From positions 1 to 37,846 of the forward strand of contig JACQQV010000034.1 in assembly GCA_016206785.1 (NCBI GenBank): a stretch of 37,846 nucleotides of DNA, given 5' to 3'. Of this stretch, positions 2 through 16,382 are shown one piece after another (position 1 is the stretch's first letter; each line of letters begins with the position of its first letter). The notes beneath the pieces are model-generated. The model was not told the DNA's origin. It saw only the letters and a program-made list of their open reading frames with translations, and made no database searches. Both the position numbers and the translations under genes were made by a program. Source of the stretch: Candidatus Omnitrophota bacterium (lineage in GTDB: Bacteria > Omnitrophota > Gorgyraeia > JACQQV01).

Positions 2-175
2 ACGGCACAGGATATCTTAGGGCTTCTGCTTAAGGGTTATGGAGAAAAGGAGATCTGTCAGAAACTCTCTACTAGGTATGAAGTGGAAAACTCCGAGGCC
101 TTCCGTAAAGAGATCTCCTCTTTCTGCGATCAGTTGCGATCCACAAAACTTCTTAAACCCCTCCTTTCTTCCTGA
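2..175 (+). CDS. PqqD-like / RRE-domain protein, C-terminal part only
   Basis: An open frame enters from the left edge and stops at TGA 173-175, giving 57 residues. It reads as the second half of a PqqD-like domain: AQDILGLLLKGYGEKEIC, a short helix, then a C-terminal helix ending in QLRSTKLLKPLLSS. This is the family pattern of a winged-helix fold (a..Il.ll..g.s..eI...l, then fl..L...gll). PqqD-like proteins are peptide-recognition elements that present a precursor peptide to modifying enzymes. The gene converges on the kinase gene of the neighbouring cassette and overlaps its 3' end by 46 nt, so no terminator separates them. The start and any partners lie outside the window. It is a second PqqD-like protein within 1.5 kb, which suggests a bigger peptide-modification locus to the left. 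Confidence 0.6.
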   Translation, partial: TAQDILGLLLKGYGEKEICQKLSTRYEVENSEAFRKEISSFCDQLRSTKLLKPLLSS

Positions 176-1026
176 AAAGAATTTCTTAGGAAAGAAATGA
201 CATGCTCATCAGGAACAAATGCCAATTCATACGTTGGAATCTGGGTGCAGAGATCGAGAGAGAACTCTGCAGAAAAAAAGAGACCTTCTCGTAACCAAGG
301 GGTCACATGCATTTCTGGAAGAAATTGTTCAAGGGATTTCTTGGGTGTCAAGCGCCTTAGCCGATTCTTTTTACCGTGGGTTAAAAAAAGGATCGCCGAA
401 AGCGATGTCCCTTTGGGGGAGCATGAAGGAAAAGAACTGGCAAGGGGGGTCCCATAGATGCGAATTCCCTTTTTCTCTCTACAGACCCCAATATATTCAT
501 CACCCAGGACAAGGGCATTTTTCTCCTGTCCAAAAAGTCTCGCCATTGTGCTCTTTCCTGCACCTTGAGGACCTACAAAAAGAAATCCTTTCCCCCCATC
601 GCGAATCCCTGCCGCATGAACAAAAAGTCCGCGTCCCTGATACAAAAAAGAAGAGAGGAGTGGGAAAACATAAGACCAAAAGATGGGAAGAGAAGGCATC
701 CGTCCATTCCTGGATTCTAAAAAGAAGGTTGCTCTTCTCGCACAAGAATCGAGTAGAATCGCCTTGGGAGGATTTTTAGAGAAAGAGGGATCGATCTCCA
801 TCAAGGTTCCCTCCGGAATTTGATAAAATCGAGAGATGTTTTTGAATTGGAAGATAGGACTACCCTTTTTGAAGGAGGGAGGTCTTGAAAAAGAACCCTT
901 TACAATAAGAAAGGGGGGATTTTGAGTGACAAAAGGAGAAAGGGATTTTTCGAGAAGGAGTCTTTCAGCCTCAAAGGAGATAGCGATCCCAGCGATCTCT
1001 AAAATCACCTTTTGTGTTCCGGTCAC
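130..1026 (-). CDS. HPr-kinase-like P-loop kinase (lasso-peptide-kinase type)
   Basis: A 298-residue protein with a Walker A loop GPQGAGKST at about residues 152-160, preceded by HAAG at 137-140 and followed by LGDEYIGV at 174-181 and a YGTP segment near 191. This order (HAAG, P-loop, acidic D/DE strand, GTP turn) is that of HPr kinase C-domain relatives, which include kinases that phosphorylate RiPP precursors such as paeninodin-type lasso peptides. It lacks the N-terminal domain of a true HprK, and there is no HPr gene nearby. It starts with GTG at 1026, 23 nt after the 42-residue peptide gene, and is the third gene of that cassette. Its likely substrate, by inference from context, is the small peptide. 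A role in exopolysaccharide loci, where such kinases also occur, is an alternative. Confidence 0.72.
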   Translation of the reverse strand: MTGTQKVILEIAGIAISFEAERLLLEKSLSPFVTQNPPFLIVKGSFSRPPSFKKGSPIFQFKNISRFYQIPEGTLMEIDPSFSKNPPKAILLDSCARRATFFLESRNGRMPSLPIFWSYVFPLLSSFLYQGRGLFVHAAGIRDGGKGFLFVGPQGAGKSTMARLFGQEKNALVLGDEYIGVCREKKGIRIYGTPLASSFPSCSPKGTSLSAILFLTHGKKNRLRRLTPKKSLEQFLPEMHVTPWLREGLFFSAEFSLDLCTQIPTYELAFVPDEHVISFLRNSFQEERRGLRSFVDRN

Positions 1027-1049
1027 AAGAACCTAACAATCCATCATCC

Positions 1050-1178
1050 TTACGGCCCAATAGGAGTAATAGCTGTCCGTGCCGTGATCTCCATATCGAC
1101 TCGGCGAAGAGTCGGCTTTTTATAACGCTTCTTGGAAGAAATTTCTTTTTTCACCTTGCGTCTTTTTGGGTCTGTCAT
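1050..1178 (-). CDS. 42-residue peptide with lasso-RiPP-like leader motif
   Basis: A small gene with a very good ribosome site (GGAGG, 5 nt before ATG 1178) and an ATGA overlap with the upstream PqqD-like gene, so it is probably translated. The product is very basic in its first half and contains Y19-K-K-P22-T-L24, followed by EIT32-A33 and ending TPIGP. Lasso-type RiPP leaders carry a Y-x-x-P-x-L motif that docks on a PqqD-like RRE and a conserved Thr near the leader end; this peptide matches both. Only nine or ten residues follow the conserved Thr, which is short for a threaded lasso core, and no B2 protease or cyclase is present in the window. It may be a phosphorylated or differently processed peptide (T35 and T38 lie in the tail). 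Precursor status is inference. Confidence 0.7.
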   Translation of the reverse strand: MTDPKRRKVKKEISSKKRYKKPTLRRVDMEITARTAITPIGP

Positions 1179-1468
1179 GAAGTCCTCCGTATGAGTCCTT
1201 CTTTTTGAAGTTCCTCAAGAAAAAGAAGGATCTCTTTCCCTGCCCGTTTTTTCTTCACACGAAACTCTGAAACCATCTCCTCGATAATTGCTTGGCAATT
1301 CAGACGTCCATCTACAAGTTCCCAAATCCGCCCCTCCACTCCTTCCATGAAATAGAATCTCCCTTTTTTCTCTTTTCTGGGCAGGATCGGAACAAGGATC
1401 CATTCGCCATCCACTTTTCGATGAACGATGTCCGGATCCTTTGTGAATCGATCCTCTAAATGGATCAT
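1175..1468 (-). CDS. PqqD-like RiPP recognition element protein
   Basis: A 97-residue protein of PqqD/RRE size. The N-terminal half (RFTKDPDIVHRKVDGEWILV) gives the beta-strand pair, and the C-terminal half (GRIWELVDGRLNCQAIIEEM, then FLEELQKEGLI) gives the winged-helix signature of PqqD-like proteins. Members bind the leader of a precursor peptide, alone or as the B1 protein of lasso systems. It is the first gene of a three-gene unit; its TGA overlaps the ATG of the 42-residue peptide. The start ATG at 1468 follows a G-rich ribosome site (GGGGGGGAGAG), and a promoter lies at 1487-1515. A PqqD-like protein directly in front of a YxxP peptide is the strongest contextual support for both calls. 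Confidence 0.75.
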   Translation of the reverse strand: MIHLEDRFTKDPDIVHRKVDGEWILVPILPRKEKKGRFYFMEGVEGRIWELVDGRLNCQAIIEEMVSEFRVKKKRAGKEILLFLEELQKEGLIRRTS

Positions 1469-1486
1469 CTCTCCCCCCCTATTTTT

Positions 1487-1515
1487 ATCTTATCATGACT
1501 CACTCACTATTGCAA
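1487..1515 (-). promoter_or_regulatory. Sigma70-type promoter for the PqqD/peptide/kinase cassette
   Basis: On the minus strand TTGCAA (1510-1515) and TAAGAT (1487-1492) are separated by exactly 17 nt, and the -10 is preceded by TG in the extended position (TGATAAGAT). Transcription would start near 1480, about a dozen bases before ATG 1468, leaving room for the G-rich ribosome site. Confidence 0.5.
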
Positions 1516-1534: not shown

Positions 1535-1563
1535 TTGACGCCCTCACAGGCTTTTGTTAGACT
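1535..1563 (+). promoter_or_regulatory. Sigma70-type promoter giving a leaderless GT39 mRNA
   Basis: TTGACG (1535-1540) and TAGACT (1558-1563) are 17 nt apart. Seven bases separate the -10 from ATG 1571, so the predicted start of transcription falls on or next to the A of the start codon. No Shine-Dalgarno sequence precedes that ATG. It lies 20 nt from the divergent promoter of the peptide cassette, so one regulator could act on both. Confidence 0.45.
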
Positions 1564-1570
1564 GACACCA

Positions 1571-3112
1571 ATGAAAAAAGGGTCTTTTTTTTGGATTCTT
1601 CTTGCCGTTGTCTCGATCTTCCTCCAATTTTACCAGTTAGGGGAAAGGAGCCTCTGGGAGGATGAGGCCCAAGTTGCGGGCAAGGCCTCTTGGAAACTTA
1701 AAGGGATTCTCCTCTATCAAAAAAATGCCCTCTATAACATCATTTTATCCTTTTGGGGCCGTTTCGGAAAGGACGAATTTTGGCTGAGGATTCCCTCGGC
1801 CCTTTTTGCCCTCTTTTCTCTTGTCGCCCTCTACGAATTAGGGAAAAAACTTTTCTCAAGGAAGGAGGCCTTTCTTGCAACGGTCCTTCTAAGTACATCT
1901 CCCTTCTTCCTCCTCGGATCCCGCCAAGTCAAAATGGAGAGTCTTGTCCTTTTTCTATCCCTCGTGAGTGTTATTTTTTTAACTCAATTCGTCGAAACGG
2001 GTCGTCTCGGAAAACTTCTTGGGTATATCGGGATCTCTCTCATGGCGATTTTAACGCACTATATGTTTTTCCCGCTCCTTCTTGCCCAATGCATTTTTGT
2101 CGTTATCTCGTTAAGAAATAAACCGCATCTCATCCTCCGCTATTTTGCGATCTGGCTTCTTGTTTTTCTTCTTTTTCTCCCGTCCTTTCCAAATCTTATG
2201 AAGCGCCTCGCCTATCTTCAGGGGGTCTACCTCTCTCCAAAAACCCCGGAGACCCTTTCTATGCCCTTCGGTTATTTTGGAAAAATGGCTCTGGTCTATT
2301 ATCTTTTCACGGCGGGTCCGACGATCGTCCCCTGGAATCTTCTCTGGGTCGTTCCTGCCACCCTTCTCTCAGGAGTCCTCCTCCTTTGCTCTTTCAACGT
2401 CTGCTTGAGGAGATCTTCTCGGCTCATTCCCCTCGCTTTTCTCTTCCCCATTCTCTTCTTATCAGCGATGCGAAACGCACAACCCCGCTACTGCTTTGTC
2501 TCTCTCCCGTTTTACACCCTCCTCCTTTCCACAGCCCTTTTTTCCCTCCGCCCCCTCTTAAGGAATCTCTTTCTATCCTGTCTTATTGTTGTGAATACCT
2601 ATGGCCTTGTCAATTACTTCGCGGGACGTCAATATCTCTTCATCACCTATTTAGAACCTTACCGACAAATCGTTTACTCTGTTCAAAAGGCGTTCGCCCC
2701 GGGGGACTTTCTCCTCCACACCCAAGAGAATCCCTCCTTTGATTATTACTTCCATGGATTGTTTCAAAAGGACGCCCCTCAAGGAAAACTTCACACGGTC
2801 GACCGGGAAAGGAGAATTCATGTAGTGAGTTGGGAAGAATTAAAAAACAAATTTCCTCCCAGCATCAACCGCCTCTGGTACATTGAACGGACGCCGGGCC
2901 AATACGTAGAGGCAACCCCCATTTCGGATGCCGAAAGGATCTATCGTGAAAATTTATCTTTTCGCTCATGGCTTGATGAGCACTTTCGTCTTTTGGATCG
3001 AAAAGCGTATCTGAAGGATTTAGAGGTGGGGAAAAAAAGAAAGATTGTTTCTAAGCTCTATCTTGAAGAAAGAATTGTCGTTTCCCTCTACGACCTCAAG
3101 AACACCCCTTAA
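1571..3112 (+). CDS. GT39-like integral membrane glycosyltransferase
   Basis: A 513-residue polytopic membrane protein of the PMT/ArnT clan (GT39/GT83-like, PMT_2 type). The first helix (FFWILLAVVSIFLQFYQLG) is followed by RSLWEDEAQVAGKA, the acidic D/E loop that in this clan binds the metal and lipid-phosphate sugar donor. About ten further hydrophobic segments follow, then a soluble C-terminal domain from about residue 370. Such enzymes move a sugar from a polyprenyl-phosphate carrier to a lipid, glycan or protein on the outer face of the inner membrane; the acceptor cannot be told. The ATG at 1571 is preferred over an in-frame TTG at 1535 because that TTG is the promoter -35. The gene converges with the tyrosine kinase gene, the two stop codons sharing TTAA. 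Confidence 0.75.
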   Translation: MKKGSFFWILLAVVSIFLQFYQLGERSLWEDEAQVAGKASWKLKGILLYQKNALYNIILSFWGRFGKDEFWLRIPSALFALFSLVALYELGKKLFSRKEAFLATVLLSTSPFFLLGSRQVKMESLVLFLSLVSVIFLTQFVETGRLGKLLGYIGISLMAILTHYMFFPLLLAQCIFVVISLRNKPHLILRYFAIWLLVFLLFLPSFPNLMKRLAYLQGVYLSPKTPETLSMPFGYFGKMALVYYLFTAGPTIVPWNLLWVVPATLLSGVLLLCSFNVCLRRSSRLIPLAFLFPILFLSAMRNAQPRYCFVSLPFYTLLLSTALFSLRPLLRNLFLSCLIVVNTYGLVNYFAGRQYLFITYLEPYRQIVYSVQKAFAPGDFLLHTQENPSFDYYFHGLFQKDAPQGKLHTVDRERRIHVVSWEELKNKFPPSINRLWYIERTPGQYVEATPISDAERIYRENLSFRSWLDEHFRLLDRKAYLKDLEVGKKRKIVSKLYLEERIVVSLYDLKNTP

Positions 3113-5022
3113 GACTTTTCGTTCTCGGCTTCTTTCTTTAACTCCTTCTTCATCTCATCCGAATAGTATTTCCGGTAGCGGTAATAGTAGGAAGAAGTCG
3201 ATTCGATTTCGACGGGCTTAAAATCATTAAACACAACCCCCAGAACCTTCGCCTGGGCCGTATCCAAGAGAACCTTGGCCCGTTTGAGGGCGTTGCGAGC
3301 GGTGCGTCCCGCCTGGTAGACGAGAATGACGCCGTCGAGTTTTGGGGCAAGGATCAAGGTATCTGTCACGGGAAGAATAGGAGGAGCGTCAAAAATTAAA
3401 ATATCGAATTCCACCAAAAGAGATCGAATGAGTTCGCCCATTTCCGCGGAGTGAAAAAGTTCCGGAGGATTGGTAGGAAGATGTCCGGCGGTCAGGAAGT
3501 TCAGATAAGCAAGGTGCGGTGTTTTGAGCGCTTCCTGCCAGTGGGCATCTCCCATGAGGAGATCCGTAATGTTTTTCAGGGCGCGGTCGTGGCTCACGGT
3601 TTTCGTCAGCACTTCGAAGAGGCCGGGGCTTCGGTCCATTTTAAAAAATTGATGGATCACCGGCCTGCGGAAATCGGCGTCGATGAGAAGGGTCTTTTTC
3701 CCGATCTGGGCTGAGGCAATCGCAAGATTTGCGCTCGTAATCGACTTACCTTCGCGGGGTGCAGTGCTGGTGATACCGATCGCCAGTTTCTCCTTTTGAG
3801 GCAACACCGAGTAGATCGCTGTCCGAAGCGTATGATACGATTCCGCCTCGGGAGAGCGGGGATCAAATTGAGTAATGAGCCTCAACTGTATCGATCTTGC
3901 CCTTTCCTCCTGGTTTTTAAAGGGGGAGGAGAAAAGTTTCTTCTTGCCGGACTCTTTCACGATATGGGGAATGACCCCCAAGACTCTGACCCCCAAAAAG
4001 GACTCCATCTCTTCGATTGCACCGATAGAGGTATCCAATCCCTCCTTAAAGAAAGCGAATACAAACCCCACCAAAATTCCCAGTACGGCACTGAGGGTAA
4101 GGCCCATCGACCGGTTCGTCCCGAAGGTAGGCCGGGGGGGAGAGGCCCCCTCAATAATGTTTAAATCTGTTACATTTTCTGCTTCTTCGATGCGTGCTGC
4201 GTTAAATCTCTCTCTCAGTTGAGAGACAACTTTTTGATTGCTCCCCACCTCCTGCGTCAGCCGAGAAAACGTCAGTTCTTCTTGAGGAAGTCTTCTGAGT
4301 TCTTCTTTCGCGGTATCGAGCTGCTGTTGTAACCGTTCCACGTCCGGATGTCTCGGTGTGGCCCGAGCAAGAAGATCCTGCAGCTTAAGCTCTAACGAGG
4401 CGATCTCCTCCTGGAATTGCCCTGCACGACTCGTGTGAAGGGTCCCCTCTTGAAATCGCTTTAAGGCTTCTTCGGAGGCCTTGAGCTTCTCCACGGCCTT
4501 TTTTAATTCTCCTTCGATAAACGCACGGACAGTGGTGATGGTACGACCTTTTTCCTCTTGATCGAAGGCGAGATACGCCTTTGCAACGGCTTCCACGATT
4601 TGTCTCGCCGTTTCAGCCTCAGGGGTGGTTGCCGTGATGCGAATGACGCTCGTCTCTCCAATCTGCTCGGTAGCGATGGCTCGCTTAATCTTTTGAATCA
4701 TCTGATCGATTTCGCGGGGATCAGAGAGTCCCTCAAGCCAACCGAGAATTTTTGCTGCGCGCTCCGCGACAGGATGACTCTTAATGATCTCCAGATGGGT
4801 CTTTATAACATAGTCTGCGGGTAGGGCACGACCGTAGACCATCCCCGTAACGGGAGCCTGAAAAGTATACTGCACCTTGATGGAAGACTGATACACGACT
4901 TTCTGGGAGGAGAGGTAATAATAAGCACCCCCCATCACCATGCAGAAAATGAGAAGGATGGTCACTTTCCTTCTTCTAAAAATACGATAGTAATCTCGTA
5001 GGTTTAGGTCGTATTGAGCCAT
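3109..5022 (-). CDS. Wzc-like polysaccharide co-polymerase with BY-kinase domain
   Basis: A 637-residue protein fusing a Wzz-type chain-length domain to a bacterial tyrosine kinase. The first membrane helix is at about residues 20-38 (VTILLIFCMVMGGAYYYL), a long coiled-coil periplasmic region spans roughly 160-290, and the second helix is at about 305-328. The cytoplasmic kinase has Walker A TAPREGKS near residue 425, Walker A' LLIDADFRRP near 450 and Walker B ILIFDAPP near 545. The tail holds the expected tyrosine cluster (SSYYYRYRKYYSDEM). It would control polymer length and export of an exopolysaccharide, cycling through autophosphorylation. It is the last gene of the enoyl reductase/ATPase/HD-GYP operon and overlaps the HD-GYP gene by 19 nt. 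No Wzx, Wzy or outer-membrane Wza-like gene is in the window. Confidence 0.9.
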   Translation of the reverse strand: MAQYDLNLRDYYRIFRRRKVTILLIFCMVMGGAYYYLSSQKVVYQSSIKVQYTFQAPVTGMVYGRALPADYVIKTHLEIIKSHPVAERAAKILGWLEGLSDPREIDQMIQKIKRAIATEQIGETSVIRITATTPEAETARQIVEAVAKAYLAFDQEEKGRTITTVRAFIEGELKKAVEKLKASEEALKRFQEGTLHTSRAGQFQEEIASLELKLQDLLARATPRHPDVERLQQQLDTAKEELRRLPQEELTFSRLTQEVGSNQKVVSQLRERFNAARIEEAENVTDLNIIEGASPPRPTFGTNRSMGLTLSAVLGILVGFVFAFFKEGLDTSIGAIEEMESFLGVRVLGVIPHIVKESGKKKLFSSPFKNQEERARSIQLRLITQFDPRSPEAESYHTLRTAIYSVLPQKEKLAIGITSTAPREGKSITSANLAIASAQIGKKTLLIDADFRRPVIHQFFKMDRSPGLFEVLTKTVSHDRALKNITDLLMGDAHWQEALKTPHLAYLNFLTAGHLPTNPPELFHSAEMGELIRSLLVEFDILIFDAPPILPVTDTLILAPKLDGVILVYQAGRTARNALKRAKVLLDTAQAKVLGVVFNDFKPVEIESTSSYYYRYRKYYSDEMKKELKKEAENEKS

Positions 5023-6053
5023 GTCTTATCCTTTGCCGCCTCAAGAATATCGACAGACTTCTTAATGTGTAGAAGGGGTTCCTGTGCCAGATTGACCCGC
5101 TTGATCTCCGGGAGGCGATCCCCACTCGCGTCCAGCCAGACGTCGATAACGGGTAGAAGCGGAAAATTTTTGTTGACCCTCACCACCTGGCCGATCTCTT
5201 TGGTGTTGAGCTGGATAAAACTTCCCACCGGATAGATGGAGAGCTCTTTCACCAAGGCCTTGAGGATGCGAACATGCTCCCCTTTAAACTGATTCCCCAT
5301 GGAATAGGCGATCATCTTCATCGCTTCGTCCTGCGTGTACCGTTTTCGATAGGGGCGGGGGTGGGTAAGCGCTTCATAGACATCCACGATGGCGATCGTG
5401 CTTCCAAATTCACTGAGCTGTTCTCCCTGGAGTCCTGCGGGGTACCCGGTTCCATCTATCCGTTCATGTTCATGCAGAATTGCATCCAACATGGTGCGGT
5501 CTAATCCCTTGGTTCCTTCCAGAAGTTCGACGGTGTAAATGGGATGCTTCTTCACAATCGCCAGTTCTTCTTCGGACAAACCGCCTCTTTTCTCCACCAA
5601 CTCCCTGGGCACCTTGGCCATTCCCACATCATGGATGAGCGCTGCAACTCCCAACTGAATAAGTTCCTGTGGCCGGTAATGGAGCCCTAACCCGACTTTG
5701 ATGGAGAGGATAGAAACATTCACGCAATGGGAATAAAGATGGTATCCTTCTTTGGGGGTGGCAGCTAACGTTAAAAGGGACTCCCCACCGCCGGTAAGGA
5801 TCTTAACCATCTTTCCTGCAATTTCCATGCCGCCGCTTATCTCAGCGATCGAGCCGCTTTCTGTCTCCTTGAATTTCTTCGTGACCCACTCGATGGCTTC
5901 CTGATAGATGAGACTTGCTTCTCCCCGTTCTGGCTCCGCCAAAGGAGGAATTGTTTCTTGGGGAGCGGTTTTTCCCTGCGGCGCCTTCTCTGTTCCTTTT
6001 GAAGAGGGTTTCAGACTTCCATCAGGCCCTAAGACATCTGAAAGGCGTACCAT
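5004..6053 (-). CDS. HD-GYP domain protein, likely c-di-GMP phosphodiesterase
   Basis: A 349-residue soluble protein. The HD-GYP core is intact: His109 in YSHCVNVS, HD at 141-142 (LIHDVGMAKVP), HEH at 194-196, and DGTGYPAGL at 200-208, followed by the conserved VDVYEALTHPRPYR block. HD-GYP enzymes hydrolyse cyclic di-GMP with a bi- or tri-metal centre. The residue after HDxG is Met rather than the usual Lys, a known variation. The N-terminal 45 residues are Pro/Lys-rich and probably disordered; there is no receiver domain, so the input signal is unknown. The ATG overlaps the ATPase gene by 1 nt (TAATG). Its place between an export ATPase and a Wzc-like kinase suggests local control of exopolysaccharide output by c-di-GMP. 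Confidence 0.88.
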   Translation of the reverse strand: MVRLSDVLGPDGSLKPSSKGTEKAPQGKTAPQETIPPLAEPERGEASLIYQEAIEWVTKKFKETESGSIAEISGGMEIAGKMVKILTGGGESLLTLAATPKEGYHLYSHCVNVSILSIKVGLGLHYRPQELIQLGVAALIHDVGMAKVPRELVEKRGGLSEEELAIVKKHPIYTVELLEGTKGLDRTMLDAILHEHERIDGTGYPAGLQGEQLSEFGSTIAIVDVYEALTHPRPYRKRYTQDEAMKMIAYSMGNQFKGEHVRILKALVKELSIYPVGSFIQLNTKEIGQVVRVNKNFPLLPVIDVWLDASGDRLPEIKRVNLAQEPLLHIKKSVDILEAAKDKTWLNTT

Positions 6054-6859
6054 TAACTCCGCCCTTCAACGCTCGCCATCGCTTCTTCCACAATGGGACG
6101 ATCTACCTGATCTCGCTTCTGGACATATCCTGTAAAAAGACACATGTCGCATATTTGATTGATGCGCCGTGGAATTCCCCCTGCTCCCTCATACACCAAT
6201 TGGATCGCCTCCTTGTTGAAAAGGGGATCGGTTCTGCCGGCAACCGAGAGGCGGTGGGAGATATATCGCTCTGTTTCTTCTTCCGTGAGGGGACCCAGAT
6301 GAAATCGTATGGAGATCCGCTGGGCAAAAGCTTTGTTGATATCTACCTGATCCTGCAGTTCCGGCTGTCCAATGAGAAGGAGGGTCACCAGGAATTTCTC
6401 TTCCATTTGAAAATTGAGAAGGAGTCGTATTTCTTCGAAGATGTCGGGGTCTTGGATGACATGCGCTTCATCAATCACCACCACCGTCTCATGGCCATCG
6501 CGGCTATTGTTTGAGAGTAGTTCCTGGAGATGAAAAAGGACATCACTTTTATGGAGGGGAGGACTTGAAACACCTAATTCGTAGAGGATCATGCGAAGCA
6601 TCTCTAGAGGATCCAGACGAGGATTGGTGATAAAGGCGATCCGGTGGCCCGATTTCTGGAGTCCCCGGATGACGGCCCGGGCCAGGAGCGTTTTCCCGCA
6701 TCCAAAAACCCCGGTCATCATCCCAGCCCCCTTCTTGCTTCTCACCACATAGAAAAGCCTCGTGAGCCCCTCTTCATGCTGCTTGGAAAGATAAAGGTAG
6801 CGGGGATCGGGCGTATTCTCAAAGGGGGCTTCTGAGAGGCCCCAGTGGGTTTCATACAT
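6053..6859 (-). CDS. ExeA/GspA-like AAA ATPase of XrtA/exopolysaccharide type
   Basis: A 268-residue ATPase starting MYETHWGLSEAPFENTPDP, the typical opening of ExeA-like proteins (Y...fgl...PF..tPdp.ylY). Walker A is GVFGCGKT, Walker B is VVVIDEAHVI, and the C-terminal part (GGIPRRINQICDMCL) is the sensor-2/lid region. Family members work in type II secretion or, as stand-alone forms, in exopolysaccharide/exosortase loci beside Wzc-like kinases. The ATG at 6859 was chosen because the family N-terminus begins there; the longer in-frame start at 6916 would overlap the reductase gene and add a non-conserved basic stretch. It follows the reductase gene by 2 nt and overlaps the HD-GYP gene by 1 nt. 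Confidence 0.85.
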   Translation of the reverse strand: MYETHWGLSEAPFENTPDPRYLYLSKQHEEGLTRLFYVVRSKKGAGMMTGVFGCGKTLLARAVIRGLQKSGHRIAFITNPRLDPLEMLRMILYELGVSSPPLHKSDVLFHLQELLSNNSRDGHETVVVIDEAHVIQDPDIFEEIRLLLNFQMEEKFLVTLLLIGQPELQDQVDINKAFAQRISIRFHLGPLTEEETERYISHRLSVAGRTDPLFNKEAIQLVYEGAGGIPRRINQICDMCLFTGYVQKRDQVDRPIVEEAMASVEGRS

Positions 6860-6861
6860 GG

Positions 6862-7674
6862 TTAACCGACGATATCCTCTCCACCGTCTACCCCGATCAC
6901 ATTGCCGGTCATCCAATGGGACTCTTCGAGGCAGAAAGTACCGATCGCCTGGGCCACATCTTTGGGTGTCGTCATCCGGCCCGAAGGATTTCTATCCAGC
7001 GCGATCTGGATCATCTTTTCATTTCCCGGAATCTTCCGAAGGGCAGGGGTATCGGTCACCCCTGCACGAACACAATTGGCGGTGATGCCAAAGGGTGCTA
7101 ACTCAAGCGCCAGTTGACGCATGTGAGATTCGAGTGTCGCCTTTGCGGCAGAAACCGCCCCATACGTTGGCCAAACCCGCGTACCGCCGGACGAGGTCAT
7201 CGCGAAAATCCGACTTCCCTTTCCCAAGAGTCTGCGCTGAACCAAATCCTGAACCCAGTAGACGAGGCTGTGGGCCATGACGTCGACGGTCATCTCCATT
7301 TGGGGTTGCGTCATCGCTTCATGGGGGTCTGAGGCGATGTACGGTTTGAGCGTTCCGAAAGCGAGTGAGTGAAAAAAGACTTTTACAGAAGGAATAGCGG
7401 ATGCATTTAACTTTTGTTGAACCGCGTCGAGTACCTCCTTTCGTTTGAGAGGGTCTGCGGCGTTCACATTAAAAAAAAGGGCCTGCCGACCCTTCGATTG
7501 AATGGTTTGGACGATCTCTTCGACATGCGGGAGTGTGTTCTTCCGATCCAGATGCACTCCGAAGATATTCATCCCTTTGCTGGCAAGTTCCAGTGAAAGG
7601 GCCTCCCCAAAGCCGCTGGAGGAACCTAAAATAAGAGACCATTCCTTCTCAAAGTGAGGAGAATTCGAAGACAC
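6862..7674 (-). CDS. Enoyl-ACP reductase, FabI/FabL-like SDR
   Basis: A 270-residue short-chain dehydrogenase. The nucleotide-binding turn is GSSSGFGEA, and the active site is Y-G-A-V-S-A-A-K, i.e. Tyr-x6-Lys, the spacing of enoyl-ACP reductases rather than the Tyr-x3-Lys of FabG. The segment VFFHSLAFG resembles the FabI HSIAF strand, while RAGVTDTPALRKIPGNEKM and NPSGRMTTPKD resemble FabL. It would carry out the last reduction in each fatty-acid elongation cycle. Start GTG 7674 has GGAGG four bases upstream. Although next to fabF, it has its own perfect consensus promoter and heads the operon with the ExeA-like ATPase. FabL versus FabI cannot be settled by eye. Because fabG is broken in this locus, a dual role deserves testing. 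Confidence 0.82.
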   Translation of the reverse strand: MSSNSPHFEKEWSLILGSSSGFGEALSLELASKGMNIFGVHLDRKNTLPHVEEIVQTIQSKGRQALFFNVNAADPLKRKEVLDAVQQKLNASAIPSVKVFFHSLAFGTLKPYIASDPHEAMTQPQMEMTVDVMAHSLVYWVQDLVQRRLLGKGSRIFAMTSSGGTRVWPTYGAVSAAKATLESHMRQLALELAPFGITANCVRAGVTDTPALRKIPGNEKMIQIALDRNPSGRMTTPKDVAQAIGTFCLEESHWMTGNVIGVDGGEDIVG

Positions 7675-7711
7675 AAGACCTCCTAACCCTAATTTCCACT
7701 ATAAATTAGAT

Positions 7712-7740
7712 ATTATACTAAAGAAAGACAAAAGTGTCAA
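7712..7740 (-). promoter_or_regulatory. Perfect consensus sigma70 promoter of the reductase/EPS operon
   Basis: TTGACA (7735-7740), 17 nt, TATAAT (7712-7717) on the minus strand: all twelve hexamer bases match. Transcription would begin near 7705, leaving about 30 nt of leader with GGAGG before GTG 7674. It sits in the 76-nt gap after fabF. Confidence 0.8.
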
Positions 7741-7750
7741 CGGTTTTTGC

Positions 7751-8986
7751 CTAAACCCGCTTAAAGACGAGGGTGGCGTTGTGGCCACCGAAGCCGAAGG
7801 AGTTGGAAAGGGCCACGTCCACCTTGGCCCTGCGCGCAGCATTGGGAACGTAGTCAAGGTCGCATTCAGGATCTTGGTTTTCGTAATTGATCGTGGGATG
7901 AATGATCCCCTCCTGAATCGTGAGCGCGCAGACTACCGCCTCCACACCTCCCGCAGCGCCCAAGAGATGACCGGTCATGGATTTCGTGGAGGAGATCGGA
8001 ATTTTTTTGGCATCCTCTCCAAAGACCTGTTTGATGGCGACCGTCTCCATCTTGTCATTGAGAGGGGTGGAGGTCCCATGGGCATTGATATAGTGGACCT
8101 CGGAGGGAGAAATCTTGGCGCGCTCCAGGGCTTGACGCATCGCGTTCGCAGCCCCCATCCCGTCTTGAGGGGGGGCGGTCATGTGATAGGCATCTCCTGT
8201 CATGCCGTAGCCGACGATCTCGCAATAGATGTGGGCTCCCCGTTTCCTGGCACGCTCATATTCTTCAAGAATGAGAATTCCGCATCCCTCCCCCATGACG
8301 AACCCATCCCGATCCCGCTCGAAGGGACGGGATGCCCTCGGAGGATCATCGTTTCGCAGAGAGAGCGCTTTTAAGGCGCAGAATCCGCCGATGCCCATCG
8401 GGGTAATACAACTTTCTGTACCGCCCGCCACCATGGCATCGGCATCTCCCCTTTGAATGATCTGAAATGCATCCCCCACCGCGTGGCTCCCAGAGGCGCA
8501 GGCGGTCGCCACACACGAATTGGGACCCTTGAGCCCAAGGCTAATCGATACCTGTCCAGGGGCCATATTGACAATCAGCATCGGGATAAGAAACGGAGAG
8601 ATCTTGCCTGGGCCTTTTTCAAGAAGGATCTTATGCTGCTCTTCAATAACATGGAGGCTTCCGATACCGGAGCCCAGAAGAACTCCAAAGCGGTAGGCAT
8701 CCTCTTTGGAAAGGTCGACCCCGGAATCTTGAATCGCCATCTTGGTGGCACAGACTGCAAATTGAACAAAGAGCTCCATCCGCCTCTGGTCTTTTGCGGA
8801 AATAAATGGGTTAGGATCGAACCTTTTTACCTCTCCGGCAATGCGAGACTCATAGGCCGACGCATCAAAAGAGGTGATGCCTCCTATGCCACTTTTCCCT
8901 TCTACGAGCGACTTCCAGAAGTCTTGGACTGTATTCCCTACAGGAGTAATCACGCCGACTCCTGTTGCTACAACCCGTCGTCCCAC
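7751..8986 (-). CDS. fabF: 3-oxoacyl-ACP synthase II
   Basis: A 411-residue condensing enzyme of full FabF length. The catalytic triad is visible: Cys in VATACASGSHAV, His in NAHGTSTPLND, and His in SMTGHLLGAAGG. It elongates acyl-ACP with malonyl-ACP in the cytoplasm. Start GTG 8986 follows GGAGGGG closely. It is separated from acpP by 97 nt that contain a terminator-like hairpin, so it probably receives less transcription than acpP. The next gene downstream has its own promoter, so this is the likely end of the recG-to-fabF transcript. Confidence 0.95.
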   Translation of the reverse strand: MGRRVVATGVGVITPVGNTVQDFWKSLVEGKSGIGGITSFDASAYESRIAGEVKRFDPNPFISAKDQRRMELFVQFAVCATKMAIQDSGVDLSKEDAYRFGVLLGSGIGSLHVIEEQHKILLEKGPGKISPFLIPMLIVNMAPGQVSISLGLKGPNSCVATACASGSHAVGDAFQIIQRGDADAMVAGGTESCITPMGIGGFCALKALSLRNDDPPRASRPFERDRDGFVMGEGCGILILEEYERARKRGAHIYCEIVGYGMTGDAYHMTAPPQDGMGAANAMRQALERAKISPSEVHYINAHGTSTPLNDKMETVAIKQVFGEDAKKIPISSTKSMTGHLLGAAGGVEAVVCALTIQEGIIHPTINYENQDPECDLDYVPNAARRAKVDVALSNSFGFGGHNATLVFKRV

Positions 8987-9021
8987 ATCCCCTCCGTCTG
9001 TTTTGGAAATCCCCTTTGCTG

Positions 9022-9058
9022 AAAAGGGCGCCCGCCAAATCCTTTAGCGAACGCCCTT
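9022..9058 (-). terminator. Terminator or attenuator hairpin after acpP
   Basis: On the minus strand a 12-bp stem, AAGGGCGTTCGC with GCGGGCGCCCTT (two G-U pairs), has an 11-nt loop and leads into TTTTC. It lies between acpP and fabF on the same strand. The U tract is short, so partial termination is more likely than a full stop; this would raise the acpP to fabF mRNA ratio. Confidence 0.6.
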
Positions 9059-9083
9059 CTCTTTAATTTAATGAAAAATAGGT

Positions 9084-9323
9084 TTAATTGCCGGTGGTCT
9101 TCTTCTCAATATATTTAATGGCATCCTCGACGGTGATGATCTTCTCCGCATCCTCATCAGGAATCTCTACACCAAATTCCTCCTCAAGGGCCATGACCAA
9201 TTCGACGGTGTCGAGGGAATCCGCCCCCAAATCATTGACAAAGGATGCGGTCGGCGTGACCTCTTCCGGTTTGGCACCTAACTGTTCTACGATGATCGCC
9301 TTGACCTTTTCAGCAACGGACAT
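9084..9323 (-). CDS. acpP: Acyl carrier protein
   Basis: A 79-residue acidic protein with the phosphopantetheine site in [19 protein letters not shown]; Ser of DSL is the attachment residue. It carries growing acyl chains for the Fab enzymes and for PlsX. Length and the four-helix pattern are standard. A strong ribosome site (AAAGGAGGGAAGG) precedes ATG 9323. The region upstream, where fabG would normally be, holds only a fragment of that gene with a promoter-like sequence inside it; downstream is a terminator-like hairpin. Together these would make acpP a separately transcribed, abundant message. Confidence 0.97.
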
Positions 9324-9367
9324 TCCTTCCCTCCTTTAATGCGCTAATCCTCACGAAGTGACTATCC

Positions 9368-9475
9368 TTAAAGAGCTTCCGCGGTGATTCCCGCATTGTT
9401 GACCAGTATATCAATCGTTCCAAATTTGTCAAGGGTTTTCTCCGCCAACTCTTTCACTTGGTCAGGCTTAGAGAT
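9368..9475 (-). pseudogene. fabG: Internal fragment of 3-oxoacyl-ACP reductase (fabG remnant)
   Basis: The gap between fabD and acpP, the usual place of fabG, still encodes a FabG-like stretch on the minus strand: ISKPDQVKELAEKT, then LDKFGTIDILVNNAGIT, then AEAL and a TAA. The DILVNNAGIT strand is the highly conserved NNAG motif of FabG and related SDR reductases. Only 35 codons are left (about residues 60-95 of a normal 245-residue FabG). The N-terminal Rossmann turn, the Ser-Tyr-Lys active site and the C-terminus are absent. The fragment is in a different frame from fabD and has no ribosome site, and its first codons overlap the last codons of fabD, as if a deletion fused the two. An assembly collapse is possible but would have to remove two separate parts of the gene. 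Confidence 0.82.
9405..9432 (-). promoter_or_regulatory. Candidate acpP promoter inside the fabG remnant
   Basis: TTGACA (9427-9432) and TATACT (9405-9410) are 16 nt apart on the minus strand; 11 of 12 hexamer bases match consensus. The start of transcription would be near 9398, about 75 nt before the acpP ATG. These bases encode part of the LDKFGTIDILV stretch of the fabG remnant. Confidence 0.5.
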
Positions 9476-10388
9476 ATAAGAGTTTAGTCTCTTCAAGGGT
9501 TTCTACATGAGAACAGGCAACTGTCGGGTCTATTTTCCGTAGGAGTCCTGTCAAGACCTTCCCCGGTCCAATTTCCACAAACTGGCGGATCCCTTTCCCG
9601 ATCAGAAACCGCATCGATTCCTCCCAGAGAACCGTTTCACTCACCTGCCTTACAAGACCTTTCCGAATCTGCGAGGGGTCTTCCTCGAAATGAGCCGTCA
9701 CATTGCTGACAAAAGGAACTTTGGGCGGCTTCAGAGGAAGATCCTGGAGAACTTTCTCAAGGGCCTCTCCTGCTTCTTTCATGAAACGGGAATGAAAAGG
9801 ACCGCTCACCTCCAAGCGGGTCACTCTTTTGGCTCCAGCCTCCTTCGAAAGGGTCATGACCCTTTCGATATCAGAGACGCGGCCTGAGACAACGATTTGG
9901 TCGGGACAGTTGAGGTTTGCCACTTCGGTTCTTGTTCTCTCACAAAGTTCCTTGACGGTTTGAAGGTTCAATCCGAAGAGGACAGCCAACGTCCCGGGTG
10001 TCTTTTTGGACGCTTCCTCCATGAAACGTCCCCTCGCTGCGACGGCGCGAAGGGCCTCCTCAAAGGAAAGAACCCCGGAAGCGTAAAGGGCCGTATATTC
10101 TCCCAAGCTGAGTCCACAGGTTGCCTGCGGCTGATACGGATTTTTCGAAGTGTGGGTCAGTGCAGCAAGCGCAGCCGCACTGGTCACAAAAATAGCAGGT
10201 TGACTATTCTGGGTAAGGGTCAGTGTCTGGAGGGGTCCTTCAAAACAGAGGGCGGTGAGTTTAAATCCGAGAAGCCTATCCGCTTTTTCGAAAATGGCTC
10301 TGGCGTCTTTGGAGTGCTCGTAGAGCTCCTTCCCCATTCCTACGAATTGGGCTCCTTGGCCGGGAAAGAGGTAGGCGCAGACTACCAT
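9468..10388 (-). CDS. fabD: Malonyl-CoA:ACP transacylase
   Basis: A 306-residue protein of normal length opening with AYLFPGQGAQFVGMGKEL. The nucleophile Ser is in CGLSLGEYTAL and the catalytic His in SGPFHSRFM; the FVEIGPGKVLTGLL block is also present. It loads malonate on ACP for FabH and FabF. ATG 10388 overlaps fabH by 7 nt. Its last codons (TKLLYL) overlap the start of the fabG remnant in another frame, so the natural C-terminus may have been replaced by a few residues at the deletion joint. Confidence 0.95.
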   Translation of the reverse strand: MVVCAYLFPGQGAQFVGMGKELYEHSKDARAIFEKADRLLGFKLTALCFEGPLQTLTLTQNSQPAIFVTSAAALAALTHTSKNPYQPQATCGLSLGEYTALYASGVLSFEEALRAVAARGRFMEEASKKTPGTLAVLFGLNLQTVKELCERTRTEVANLNCPDQIVVSGRVSDIERVMTLSKEAGAKRVTRLEVSGPFHSRFMKEAGEALEKVLQDLPLKPPKVPFVSNVTAHFEEDPSQIRKGLVRQVSETVLWEESMRFLIGKGIRQFVEIGPGKVLTGLLRKIDPTVACSHVETLEETKLLYL

Positions 10389-11386
10389 CGAACAAGACAG
10401 GAGCCCCAGACAAGTCCTCCCCCCACGGCGACGAGGACCACGAGGTCGCCCCTCTTCACCCTTCCCTCTTCCACCGCTTCACAGAGGGCGGTCACCGTCG
10501 AGGCGCTCGACATGTTACCATAACGGTTCAAATTCAAATAAATCTTTGAAAGGGGATACCCTAACCGCTCGGCCATCGCTTCAATAATGCGCACGTTGGC
10601 TTGATGGGGAATAAGACAAGTGATTTGATCCATCGTGAAACCGTTTTCCCGGACTATCCTTTCCACCGATTCTGTCATCGCCCTTACAGCCAATTTGAAG
10701 ACCTCACCCCCATTCATTCTCATATAATGAAGCCCTTCCCGAATCGTCTTTTCGCTGGCCGGAAAACGTGCTCCCCCTCCTGGAATCATCAGAAGTTCTC
10801 CATAACCCCCGTCGGATCCAAGGTAGGTGGAAAGAATCCCTCCTTCTGAGACAGGGGCCATCACCGCTGCGCCTGCCCCGTCTCCAAAAAGGACGCAGGT
10901 ATTCCGGTCCTTCCAGTCGACAATGGTGGAAAGGGTCTCGGCGCCGACGACGAGGGCGTTCTTGTAGGTCCCTGCTGCAATAAACTGCTTGGCGATAGTC
11001 AAGGCATGGATAAATCCTGAGCACGCTGCGGAGACATCAAAACAGGCGGCCCGCTTTGCGCCCAATTTTTCCTGGATAAGACAACTGGTGGCGGGAAAAG
11101 GCATATCGGGGGTAATGGTAGCGACGACGATGAGATCCACCTCTTCTGGACGAAGACCCGCTCGGGCAATGGCCGCTTCCGAGGCCCGCGCCCCCAGATC
11201 ACTGGTGACCATTCCGTTGGAGACGACCCGTCGCTCCTTAATGCCTGTACGGGTGGCGATCCACTCATCCGAGGTATCGACCATCCTTTCAAGGTCGTGA
11301 TTGGTGAGAACCTTCTCAGGAAGATATTTTCCTAATCCGATAAAACCGACGGGGAGGAGTCCTTTCTTATCTTTGGATTCAAACAT
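10382..11386 (-). CDS. fabH: 3-oxoacyl-ACP synthase III
   Basis: A 334-residue KASIII. Catalytic Cys is in DVSAACSGFIHAL, His in IPHQANVRII and Asn in YGNMSSAS; the order and spacing are normal. It starts fatty-acid synthesis by condensing an acyl-CoA primer with malonyl-ACP. It overlaps plsX upstream by 8 nt and fabD downstream by 7 nt, the usual plsX-fabH-fabD order. About a dozen residues precede the conserved PVGFIGLGKYLPEK opening. Confidence 0.96.
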   Translation of the reverse strand: MFESKDKKGLLPVGFIGLGKYLPEKVLTNHDLERMVDTSDEWIATRTGIKERRVVSNGMVTSDLGARASEAAIARAGLRPEEVDLIVVATITPDMPFPATSCLIQEKLGAKRAACFDVSAACSGFIHALTIAKQFIAAGTYKNALVVGAETLSTIVDWKDRNTCVLFGDGAGAAVMAPVSEGGILSTYLGSDGGYGELLMIPGGGARFPASEKTIREGLHYMRMNGGEVFKLAVRAMTESVERIVRENGFTMDQITCLIPHQANVRIIEAMAERLGYPLSKIYLNLNRYGNMSSASTVTALCEAVEEGRVKRGDLVVLVAVGGGLVWGSCLVRW

Positions 11387-12383
11387 AGGTTCCCTTCTTT
11401 CCTAAGGTGGCCTGAATTTTTTCATTCAGTTGAGAACTGACGAACTCCCCCGCGACCCGGATCGCATTTTTAATCGCTTTTGCAGAAGAAGCCCCGTGAC
11501 AGATGATGCAGGCCCCGTTCACCCCCAAAAGGGGCGCTCCTCCGAATTCAGTATAATCCAATCGTTTTTTAAGGCGTGAGAGGGTCGGTTTAATGAGGAG
11601 TGAGCCCATTTTACTCAAAAAACTTGACATGAGTTCCCGACGGAGAAGAATATTGGTCGATTCCGCGAGGGATTCTGTGACCTTGAGCACAACATTTCCC
11701 ACAAACCCGTCACAGACGACCACATCGATTTTTCCGGAGAAGATGTCCCTTCCCTCAATATTCCCGACAAAGTTCAGACGGCTTTCCTCGATCAGTTTGT
11801 GGGTTTCCTTCATGAAATCGGGTCCCTTGGACTCTTCCTCCCCAATATTCAGAAGACCGACGCGAGGCTCTTTCTTGTGGAGGATGAGTGACGCATAAGT
11901 GGATCCCATCACGGCATACTGGAGGAGGTGCTCCGGCTTGGCATCGATATTGGCGCCGATATCGATGATGACCGAATGTCCATTCAGGGTGGGATAGGCG
12001 ATGGCAATCCCAGGCCGCTCGATCCCCTCCAATAGACCAAGGGTCAGCGTCGTTGCGACGACGGCCGCCCCGGTGTGCCCAGCACTCACGACCGCGTCCG
12101 CTTCTTTCTTTTTGACAAGTTCCGCGGCCACGACAATGGAAGAGTCCCGTTTTTTCCGAACCGTGACCGCCGCAGGTTCCGCCATATCGACTACTTCCGA
12201 GGCGGGCCGAATCGTGACACAAGAAGGGACCGGTTTAAGTTTCGCGAGTTCCTTTTCCAAAAGGTCTTGCCGGCCCACCAGGATCACCTCGATGCCATAG
12301 GCTCTCGCCGCGTTTACCGCTCCTTCAACAACGACACGAGGGGCATGGTCTCCCCCCATTCCATCTACAGCGACTCTCGCCAT
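11379..12383 (-). CDS. plsX: Phosphate acyltransferase
   Basis: A 334-residue PlsX. It begins MARVAVDGMGGDHAP, the family hallmark, and keeps AGHTGAAVVATTLTLG, the GIERPGIA strand and the late LLGVNGACIICHGAS motif. It makes acyl-phosphate from acyl-ACP for membrane phospholipid synthesis, acting at the cytoplasmic membrane surface. It follows rpmF by a single base (TGA-G-ATG) and overlaps fabH, so it is translationally coupled to both. The rpmF-plsX-fabH order is conserved in many bacteria. Confidence 0.96.
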   Translation of the reverse strand: MARVAVDGMGGDHAPRVVVEGAVNAARAYGIEVILVGRQDLLEKELAKLKPVPSCVTIRPASEVVDMAEPAAVTVRKKRDSSIVVAAELVKKKEADAVVSAGHTGAAVVATTLTLGLLEGIERPGIAIAYPTLNGHSVIIDIGANIDAKPEHLLQYAVMGSTYASLILHKKEPRVGLLNIGEEESKGPDFMKETHKLIEESRLNFVGNIEGRDIFSGKIDVVVCDGFVGNVVLKVTESLAESTNILLRRELMSSFLSKMGSLLIKPTLSRLKKRLDYTEFGGAPLLGVNGACIICHGASSAKAIKNAIRVAGEFVSSQLNEKIQATLGKKGTYV

Positions 12384-12384
12384 C

Positions 12385-12594
12385 TCAGGCCTTCACCTCT
12401 TTCTCCTTCTTTGCCCCTTCCCCCATCGCCTTGACCTGTTTTCCAGCATAATAACCACAGGAAACACAGAGGCGGTGGGGCCTCTTCAGGGCCCCACACT
12501 GCGGACAAGGAACGAGGGTGATCGCTTTCAACCGATCGTGGGTACGCCGTTTCGCCTGCCGCTGTCGTGAATGTCGTCTTTTGGGTAATGCCAT
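12385..12594 (-). CDS. rpmF: 50S ribosomal protein L32
   Basis: A 69-residue basic protein beginning MALPKRRHSRQRQAKRRTHD. The zinc ribbon CPQC...CVSC is complete, so this is the Zn-binding form. The acidic/lysine tail (EGAKKEKEVKA) is slightly longer than usual. TAAGGAGG stands 5 nt ahead of ATG 12594. A palindromic repeat separates it from DUF177, which normally sits directly upstream; both lie in the same transcript by orientation. Confidence 0.96.
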   Translation of the reverse strand: MALPKRRHSRQRQAKRRTHDRLKAITLVPCPQCGALKRPHRLCVSCGYYAGKQVKAMGEGAKKEKEVKA

Positions 12595-12619
12595 TTTGCC
12601 TCCTTAAATCTAGAAATTA

Positions 12620-12715
12620 AAAAGTCAAAACGCAAAATTTAAAAGTACAATTCAAAATTAAAAACTTTTGAATTTTGAATTTCAATTTTGCCTTTTTCGT
12701 TTTACGTTTTGACTT
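12620..12715. repeat. AT-rich imperfect palindromic repeat between DUF177 and rpmF
   Basis: Outer arms AAGTCAAAACG (12622-12632) and CGTTTTGACTT (12705-12715) are exact reverse complements. Inside, CAAAATT/AATTTTG and TTCAAAATT/TTTTGAATTTTGAA continue the pairing around a centre near 12665. The run of A/T stands out sharply from the surrounding genes. It has the look of a short non-autonomous palindromic element. Its right arm lies inside the DUF177 gene and supplies the final codons and stop. Confidence 0.8.
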
Positions 12716-13121
12716 CGTTGGAGCAGCTACATGTTGCTTCATTGAGGTTCTGCCCACACGCCCCGCAGACCCCTTTGCATCCTTCCTGACAAAGAGGTTT
12801 CATCGGGTACTCCAAGAGAATTTCTTGGCGGATATCATCCGTCAGATCGATGACCTTGGCCTTCTCGATAGGATAGGTCAGTTCGACCTCTTTGACAAGG
12901 GGAGACTCATAAAAGGCAAGGCAACGACCACATTGGAGTCGCATGACGTAAGAGAGCGACAGATGAACAAACAGATCCCCTCCCTCCCGGTAAAGTTGAT
13001 AAGAGATCTCAAAAGGGGAGAGGACCTGAACATCTTCTGTATCGAGATCATAAGGAATGGCACTCAGCGATTCCTTCGCCGAAAGCCCCCCCTCCGGGAT
13101 TTGATTGGGATACACTTTCAT
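12702..13121 (-). CDS. YceD/DUF177 family protein, C-terminus altered
   Basis: A 139-residue protein. The central CGRC pair (LQCGRCLAFYESPL) and the later CKGVCGACGQNLN and CSC cysteines are typical of DUF177 proteins, which are linked to 23S rRNA maturation and almost always sit beside rpmF. It is probably cytoplasmic and may bind zinc. The family normally continues after the CSC motif with a short Asp-Pro-Arg-containing tail; here the sequence ends NEVKT and a TAA that come from the arm of the palindromic repeat. The N-terminal domain and cysteines are intact, so the protein may still work. It follows coaD by 6 nt. Confidence 0.85.
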   Translation of the reverse strand: MKVYPNQIPEGGLSAKESLSAIPYDLDTEDVQVLSPFEISYQLYREGGDLFVHLSLSYVMRLQCGRCLAFYESPLVKEVELTYPIEKAKVIDLTDDIRQEILLEYPMKPLCQEGCKGVCGACGQNLNEATCSCSNEVKT

Positions 13122-13127
13122 ACGGAC

Positions 13128-13616
13128 TTACTTTCGACGAAGCTTCTCCTTCAAACGCCTCTCTACGAAGGGAGGAACAAAATCGGAAACCCTCGCCCCC
13201 AATGCTGCCGCCTCTTTAATGAGACGGGATGAAAGATAGGCATAATTTTCAGAGGGCATGAGAAAGATCGTCTCAACCCGTCGATCCAACTTCCGGTTCG
13301 TGAGAGCCATCTGAAATTCATACTCAAAATCTGAGATCATCCGGAGCCCCCGGATTACCACCTTCGCTTTCTTTCGCCGTACATAATCCACGACCAGCCC
13401 GTCAAAGGGTTCCACCTTCACCCTTTTCATCGAACGGGTCGCCTGTTGCATCATCCCCAACCGTTCCGAAAGGGTAAAAAGAGGTTTTTTCCCAATGTTC
13501 TTCGCGATGGCGACCGTCACCCCATCAAAAATGCTGAGCGCCCGTTTGATGAGGTCGAGATGACCATAGGTGACAGGATCAAAACTTCCCGGATAGACCG
13601 CGTAAGCGTCGTTCAC
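13128..13616 (-). CDS. coaD: Phosphopantetheine adenylyltransferase
   Basis: A 162-residue nucleotidyltransferase of normal size. The start YPGSFDPVTYGHLDLI contains the T-x-G-H signature that binds ATP, and YLSSRLIKEAAALG matches the ISS-type phosphate loop. It makes dephospho-CoA, the fourth step of CoA synthesis, and so also feeds 4'-phosphopantetheine to ACP. Start is GTG 13616, overlapping the rsmD stop as GTGA. The rsmD-coaD pair is common in bacteria. Confidence 0.96.
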   Translation of the reverse strand: MNDAYAVYPGSFDPVTYGHLDLIKRALSIFDGVTVAIAKNIGKKPLFTLSERLGMMQQATRSMKRVKVEPFDGLVVDYVRRKKAKVVIRGLRMISDFEYEFQMALTNRKLDRRVETIFLMPSENYAYLSSRLIKEAAALGARVSDFVPPFVERRLKEKLRRK

Positions 13617-14176: not shown

Positions 14177-14178
14177 CG

Positions 14179-16299: not shown

Positions 16300-16313
16300 G
16301 CCTTTATTATAAC
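16285..16313 (+). promoter_or_regulatory. Promoter of rpmB overlapping the recG promoter
   Basis: TTGATT (16285-16290), 17 nt, TATAAC (16308-16313). Transcription would start near 16320, just before the twin palindromes. The -10 hexamer overlaps the -10 of the opposite-strand recG promoter, so the two cannot be opened by two polymerases at once. Confidence 0.55.
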
Positions 16314-16314
16314 A
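16306..16314 (-). promoter_or_regulatory. Extended -10 promoter of recG, leaderless
   Basis: TGTTATAAT on the minus strand has a perfect TATAAT (16306-16311) and the TG extension. Six bases (AAAGGC) separate it from ATG 16299, so transcription is predicted to start at the initiation codon. No good -35 is seen, as often with extended -10 promoters. Confidence 0.5.
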
Positions 16315-16323
16315 TGGACAAGC

Positions 16324-16358: not shown

Positions 16359-16382
16359 TGTGAAGACTTCAAGGAGAAAAAG

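Follow-up and report, generated by a model that had tools for sequence, protein, structure and literature searches.

The question raised by one end of the window, a 37,846-nt stretch of DNA that makes up an entire contig of a 1.6-Mb, 95%-complete metagenome-assembled genome of Candidatus Omnitrophota, is what kind of peptide is made by three genes that form one compact unit on the minus strand, in the order RRE, YxxP peptide and kinase. The first-pass annotation had described these as three coupled frames encoding a PqqD-like RRE, a 42-aa YxxP peptide and an HPr-kinase-like (HPrK-like) enzyme, and we found all three where it placed them (Table 1). The ATG of the peptide overlaps the stop codon of the RRE (ATGA) and is preceded by CGGAGGA, a strong Shine-Dalgarno sequence, and the kinase begins with GTG, 23 nt beyond the peptide stop. 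The single promoter that had also been proposed was not recovered: a scan for sigma-70-like sites upstream of 1468 gave none at a threshold of 9/12, and the best match by eye reached 8/12 (TTGCAA-17-TAAGAT).

Table 1. Features of the operon and its surroundings in the window.
Feature	Coordinates	Strand	Evidence
Second PqqD-like RRE, C-terminal half, truncated by the contig end	2..175	+	Pfam PF05402, 26.1 bits
HPrK-like kinase, 298 aa, Walker A GPQGAGKST, H137, K158, D176	130..1026	-	Family membership, weak profile matches
42-aa precursor-like peptide MTDPKRRKVKKEISSKKRYKKPTLRRVDMEITARTAITPIGP, YxxPxL = Y19, P22, L24	1050..1178	-	Leader profile, alignment to relatives
PqqD-like discrete RRE, 97 aa, gene 1 of the operon	1175..1468	-	Pfam PF05402, structure model
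PMT_2 membrane glycosyltransferase, divergent neighbour, 5' border of the operon	1535..3112	+	Pfam PMT_2, 53.7 bits
Wzc-like chain-length determinant/tyrosine autokinase, upstream exopolysaccharide locus	3109..5022	-	NCBIfam eps_fam, 163 bits (cut-off 108)
XrtA/PEP-CTERM-associated-type ATPase, upstream exopolysaccharide locus	6053..6916	-	NCBIfam TIGR03015, 220 bits (cut-off 324.5)

Since a divergent gene starts at 1535 and a convergent RRE gene ends at 175, both borders of the operon lie inside the contig. The contig starts at window base 1, so the left neighbourhood is absent beyond the 129 bp that lie left of the kinase gene. The convergent gene, unnoticed in the first-pass annotation, overlaps the 3' end of the kinase gene and encodes part of a second RRE, which exceeds the Pfam cut-off of 23.4 and scores 15.4 bits against a PqqD profile built without it. 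It points to another RRE operon past the contig end, and the absent part is the operon that owns this second RRE. When contig joining was tried across the genome's contigs, none overlapped this one or ended in a partial RRE. No radical-SAM gene was found within 5 kb on the upstream side of the operon or in the 129 bp on its left. A Wzc-like kinase, an HD-domain protein and an XrtA-type ATPase are encoded upstream, and the setting is therefore an exopolysaccharide locus.

The peptide was scored against a leader profile made from peptides adjoining HPrK-like kinases in other genomes, with both paralogues of its own genome left out. The 42-mer ranked first among the 468 ORFs of the window (E=0.0013; runner-up E=2), and none of 2000 residue-shuffled versions reached its score, figures into which the motif is partly built since the profile peptides were chosen by a YxxP-like pattern. 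YxxPx[LIVMF] occurs in 5 of 400 small ORFs, so the motif by itself is insufficient evidence; the match reaches beyond it to K16, K21, V27 and position. K16, Y19 and P22 are invariant in an alignment of the 42-mer with 10 relatives, and the genome holds only three such YxxP peptides and three HPrK-like kinases, one peptide beside each kinase. As judged by sequence comparison, the leader belongs to a genuine family, and YxxP frames beside PqqD/HPrK pairs, as the first-pass proposal implied, are common in related genomes.

The tail of the window peptide, ITARTAITPIGP, is free of Ser and contains Thr35 and Thr38. The peptide ends in GP and has no Cys, no terminal Ser, and neither Ser nor an aromatic residue after Y19; there is no Asp or Glu after E30, and ten residues lie beyond T32. 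The T32-A that had been taken to mark a conserved Thr does not hold up as such, since relatives carry PEEAVLxxC at that place.

The product of the first gene is PqqD-like, as annotated, with 37.3 bits to Pfam PqqD PF05402 against a cut-off of 23.4. Lasso PqqD models score best (NCBIfam lasso_PqqD_Bac, 49.4 bits, below its cut-off of 80), and the AlphaFold2 model (pLDDT 87.9) matches the TbiB1-leader complexes 5V1V/5V1U (E 2e-5, TM 0.80), so that a predicted fold equal to that of lasso B1-leader complexes is well supported. The RRE profile also matches LppB 9X8Z and PbaB1 9X90; its match to TbiB1 (E 2e-15) is stronger than that to LppB (E 8e-9). The window copy has E at position 42, where 61 of 67 relatives have N. 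The equivalent residue of LppB, N33, fixes the Pro kink, and its change to Ala almost abolished binding (PMC13381572). Because E42 replaces this N, docking of the peptide through the standard contacts is not assured. Position 79 (LppB D70) is also E in the window copy, as it is in 16 relatives.

The HPrK-like label stands for the kinase in its catalytic residues and in weak matches, while no Pfam kinase family is reached. The best curated model is ScmC (29.2 bits, cut-off 125), which is also the best curated model for 15 of the 16 kinases of the Omnitrophota HPrK-like family. The structure model, built from a shallow alignment of window sequences and related loci alone, has a pLDDT of 66.7 with a weak N-terminal half, and its P-loop part matches PEPCK structures. 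PEPCK and HPr kinases have this P-loop core in common, and the HPrK-like assignment is built on it together with weak NCBIfam ScmC/HprK-related matches and weak profile matches to the HPr kinase/phosphatases 1KNX and 1KO7. Walker A, H137, G157, K158, T160 and D176 are kept, and four positions conserved among relatives are changed: W195L (W in 94%), G197S (88%), R178Y (77%) and R182C (82%). In a FastTree phylogeny the kinase pairs with a paralogue of the same genome, C11 (support 1.0), followed by three kinases from other genomes, L128, L132 and L146 (support 0.80). A scan of the contig collection with kinase profile A3 gave seven loci, five of them good relatives.

The operon has many kin. Of 384 genomes sampled from the class, within Omnitrophota, 101 (about a quarter) carry kinases of this HPrK-like family; the same kinase type is found elsewhere in the phylum and on contigs titled Nitrospirae. 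Neighbours, named by their Pfam families, were counted at the 56 kinase loci that extend for 4 kb or more to either side. Of these loci, 54 have a radical-SAM gene within 6.5 kb, 45 a YxxP peptide, 43 an RRE, 35 a signal-peptidase-like (S26-like) protein, 33 an NTP_transf_5 protein and 32 an ABC exporter. The family peptides follow the consensus K-K-x-[YFW]-x-x-P-x-[IV]-x-x-[VI]-x-L and continue with PEEAVL and Cys into tails that vary; a typical relative (L049) is MPKRAYKKPDIRKVELVPQEAVLMGCKRSNGQGGKNNRCPPVSGGCKTTSGS. In typical cassettes (L043, L046, L049, L052) a radical-SAM gene lies beside a Cys-containing, usually Ser-ended peptide. Ser is the last residue of 63 of the 84 distinct family peptides, or of 51 of 67 with each locus counted once, compared to 6% of the long ORFs and 10% of the other small ORFs at the same loci. 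The tails are otherwise variable, and the binomial figure for terminal Ser ignores relatedness and is not to be taken at face value. At the level of sequence, the pattern suggests a Cys-modified, Ser-phosphorylated class of RiPPs in Omnitrophota. Among the papers searched, none described HPrK-like kinases alongside radical-SAM RiPPs in Omnitrophota.

Several observations were made in passing on these relatives. Terminal Ser recurs in radical-SAM-associated peptides adjoining HPrK-like kinases at L043, L046, L049, L104 and others. Apparent kinase/radical-SAM fusions, in a frame of 590-700 aa, lie beside WxxP peptides at eight loci (L120, L122, L124, L125, L126, L129, L131, L135). The YxxP peptides of L086 and L151 are identical although their genomes are placed in different classes of the phylum (G123, G452), which would reflect recent transfer or a binning error.

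Measured against this family, which is common in Omnitrophota, the window copy is a stripped-down, diverged member. Its sister cassette C11 (L035, G000:C11:13500-32500, about 7724-11096) encodes a radical-SAM/SPASM protein, a YxxP peptide, a kinase 38% identical to that of the window and a variant radical-SAM protein, so arranged that radical-SAM genes lie on both sides of the kinase, with no RRE nearby. The C11 peptide ends in ...CSPECPPQGASPCG and likewise has no terminal Ser. The third cassette of the genome, C42 (L036, G000:C42:58000-77500, about 4494-17635), is larger: besides its kinase and a YxxP peptide whose last residues are SS, it encodes two RREs and three radical-SAM proteins, as well as an XrtA-type ATPase and an S24/S26-peptidase/GNAT/NTP_transf_5 fusion; the NTP_transf_5 domain of that fusion is the only one in the genome to score over threshold. 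Among the nearest relatives elsewhere, L128 has the order RRE-peptide-kinase of the window, no radical-SAM gene in between and a Cys-less peptide, and, downstream of the kinase, L128, L132 and L146 all have radical-SAM genes of the B12-binding type. The window copy thus falls within a subgroup of unusual layout. The window (T-P), C11 (S-P) and L128 (T-P) peptides all have [ST]-P close to their C-termini, which may be a weak hint of the phospho-acceptor.

The first-pass annotation regarded the system as possibly undescribed, but the combination of a discrete RRE, an HPrK-like kinase and a YxxP precursor without a cyclase is that of the linear polyphosphorylated peptides (LPPs) of Bacillota, which are often found in capsular polysaccharide loci and whose clusters also encode an SpI-like peptidase, an NTP transferase and an MsbA-like exporter (Popov et al. 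2026, PMC13381572). In these systems the kinase adds several phosphates to one Ser; LppK phosphorylates an internal Ser and does not accept Thr at its site (PMC13381572). The window operon shares the three components, the missing cyclase and the polysaccharide locus, and at the family level the Omnitrophota relatives add an SpI-like peptidase, an NTP_transf_5 protein and an ABC exporter. On the other hand, LPPs are stated to be restricted to Bacillota (PMC13381572), whereas Omnitrophota is another phylum and most relatives carry radical-SAM/SPASM enzymes. The leaders differ as well, with YxxPxIxxVxLxPEEAVLxxC in relatives versus YxxPxVLxHQxIxFETxxS in LPPs, and the window peptide, YKKPTLRRVDMEITARTAITPIGP, misses the LPP consensus (relatives, YxKPxIxxVxLxPEEAVLxxC). 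The acceptor of the relatives is apparently the C-terminal Ser, and the window copy has neither Ser nor a peptidase or transporter: genes for an SpI-like peptidase, an NTP transferase and an MsbA-like transporter are absent from the operon, which sits at the contig end. The Omnitrophota family is thus LPP-like and is not filed as LPP, since its leaders diverge from the LPP consensus.

The other known systems are more distant. Paeninodin-type lasso clusters (PadeK/ThcoK) have in common with the window an RRE, a [YW]xxP leader and an HPrK-like kinase, and the conserved C-terminal Ser of their substrates is found in the relatives of the window copy, not in the copy itself; unlike them, the window operon has no B2 protease, no cyclase and no core capable of forming a lasso. 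SynChlorMet (NCBIfam TIGR04248-TIGR04251: ScmC, ScmD, ScmE, ScmF) resembles the relatives in gene content, with a PqqD protein (ScmD) and radical-SAM/SPASM proteins (ScmE/F), and provides the nearest curated models for the family's kinase and radical-SAM proteins, far under cut-off. The window scores are likewise far below the cut-offs (ScmC, 29.2 of 125 bits; ScmD, 26.6 of 100 bits), and a literature search on SynChlorMet found no paper. There is also likeness to the radical-SAM/RRE/HPrK/YxxP cassettes of Omnitrophota and Nitrospirota, in which RRE, kinase and leader are homologous to those of the window and stand in one operon, but which place a radical-SAM gene beside a Cys peptide, usually Ser-ended; the window peptide is neither.

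What, then, would the three genes do? From comparison with the family we infer docking and phosphorylation. The peptide's KKRYKKPTL segment would join the RRE as an extra strand, and the RRE would present the C-terminal tail to the HPrK-like kinase, which would phosphorylate a hydroxyl in that tail. Because the tail is Ser-free, the likeliest acceptor would be Thr35 or Thr38 (the T-P site aligned with the S-P of the C11 paralogue). Leader removal, further modification and export would come from elsewhere, either from the operon of the second RRE or from cassettes C11 and C42, both of which encode radical-SAM enzymes and the latter also the signal-peptidase-like/NTP_transf_5 fusion, as putative helpers. 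The phosphorylated peptide near an exopolysaccharide locus that the first-pass annotation envisaged would fit this setting.

We lean towards the view that this is a complete three-gene operon for a phosphorylated, non-lasso RiPP-like peptide that works like the LPPs of Bacillota. Gene order, the family membership of the three proteins, the modelled RRE fold and the kept catalytic residues are shown by the analysis, and the view draws on the leader homology, the lasso-B1-like fold and kinase residues H137, K158, T160 and D176. It draws further on the relatives' neighbours, which are the LPP core set, radical-SAM enzyme aside; on the family peptides being mostly Ser-ended, since PadeK, an HPrK-like kinase of lasso systems, phosphorylates a C-terminal Ser (PMC9266682); and on one YxxP peptide per HPrK-like gene, no B2 protease and borders within the contig. 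Counting against it are the lack of a terminal Ser, of Cys and of Ser after Y19 in the window peptide, given that LppK refuses Thr, as well as E42 in the RRE, the four kinase substitutions and a kinase model that is only partly confident. It is possible, though we think it less probable, that this is a usual Omnitrophota radical-SAM RiPP cluster whose radical-SAM gene lies past the contig end with the second RRE, so that the peptide is both modified and phosphorylated. All but two of the 56 full-context relatives have such a gene within 6.5 kb, the left side of the window is only 129 bp long with the second RRE exactly there, L128, L132 and L146 have theirs downstream, and C11 is flanked on both sides. 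However, the next gene is convergent and the operon therefore ends at the kinase, and, with no Cys in the peptide and nothing aromatic beyond Y19, the usual thioether or aromatic targets are missing.

The remaining explanations carry less weight. That all three genes have lost positions conserved in the family, and that the genome holds a complete sister cassette on another contig, would suit a decaying duplicate of C11 that has lost terminal Ser, Cys and contact residues and whose product is no longer made; this seems unlikely to us, as the three frames are intact across 437 codons, the strong Shine-Dalgarno sequence and ATGA overlap are kept, and Walker A, H137, D176 and the leader motif are retained. 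It is very improbable that the 42-residue frame is no substrate and that the RRE and kinase serve a peptide encoded elsewhere: the tail has no acceptor residue of the kind found in relatives, but the leader profile match, the overlap coupling and the one peptide per kinase in the genome speak for the frame. A phosphorylated lasso peptide of the paeninodin type is scarcely credible, even though the RRE, YxxPxL leader and HPrK-like kinase are common to paeninodin clusters (PMC9266682, PMC13381572) and the RRE scores highest with lasso PqqD models. We rejected a lasso product, in agreement with the first-pass annotation, because the 95%-complete genome gave no match to the B2 protease (Transglut_core3) at E<=10, in a search whose control gave matches in 7 of 14 genomes, and because the ten-residue tail after T32 is too short and has no Asp or Glu for ring closure; asparagine-synthetase-like genes lie only on other contigs of the genome.

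A broader and more speculative idea, which we hold to be rather doubtful as a whole, is that Omnitrophota and some Nitrospirota make peptides of a large and so far undescribed class, radical-SAM-modified on Cys, phosphorylated on a near-invariant C-terminal Ser and tied to exopolysaccharide loci. The window operon would then be a branch without the radical-SAM step, in which phosphorylation moved to an internal Thr-Pro and the RRE and kinase changed to match.

LPP-type phosphopeptides have been reported only from Bacillota. LPP logic together with radical-SAM enzymes in about a quarter of the sampled genomes of a deep-branching uncultured class would offer a wealth of natural variants. From the family-wide terminal Ser the phosphorylation site can be predicted directly and cheaply, and the three-gene window copy is a minimal set for testing RRE docking and kinase action without other enzymes.

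Two further features of the window lie well away from the operon. The queA-like gene contains, at about 22180-22350 (minus strand) between RVLETSIKG and GWTDLFIYP, an in-frame, G+C-rich stretch of ~50 codons with internal inverted repeats that looks like a small inserted element. In the tgt-like gene, a pattern scan revealed an in-frame tandem run of ACGAACG at 21387-21417 (minus strand), translated as RITNDERRTTNKEQ and far above chance.
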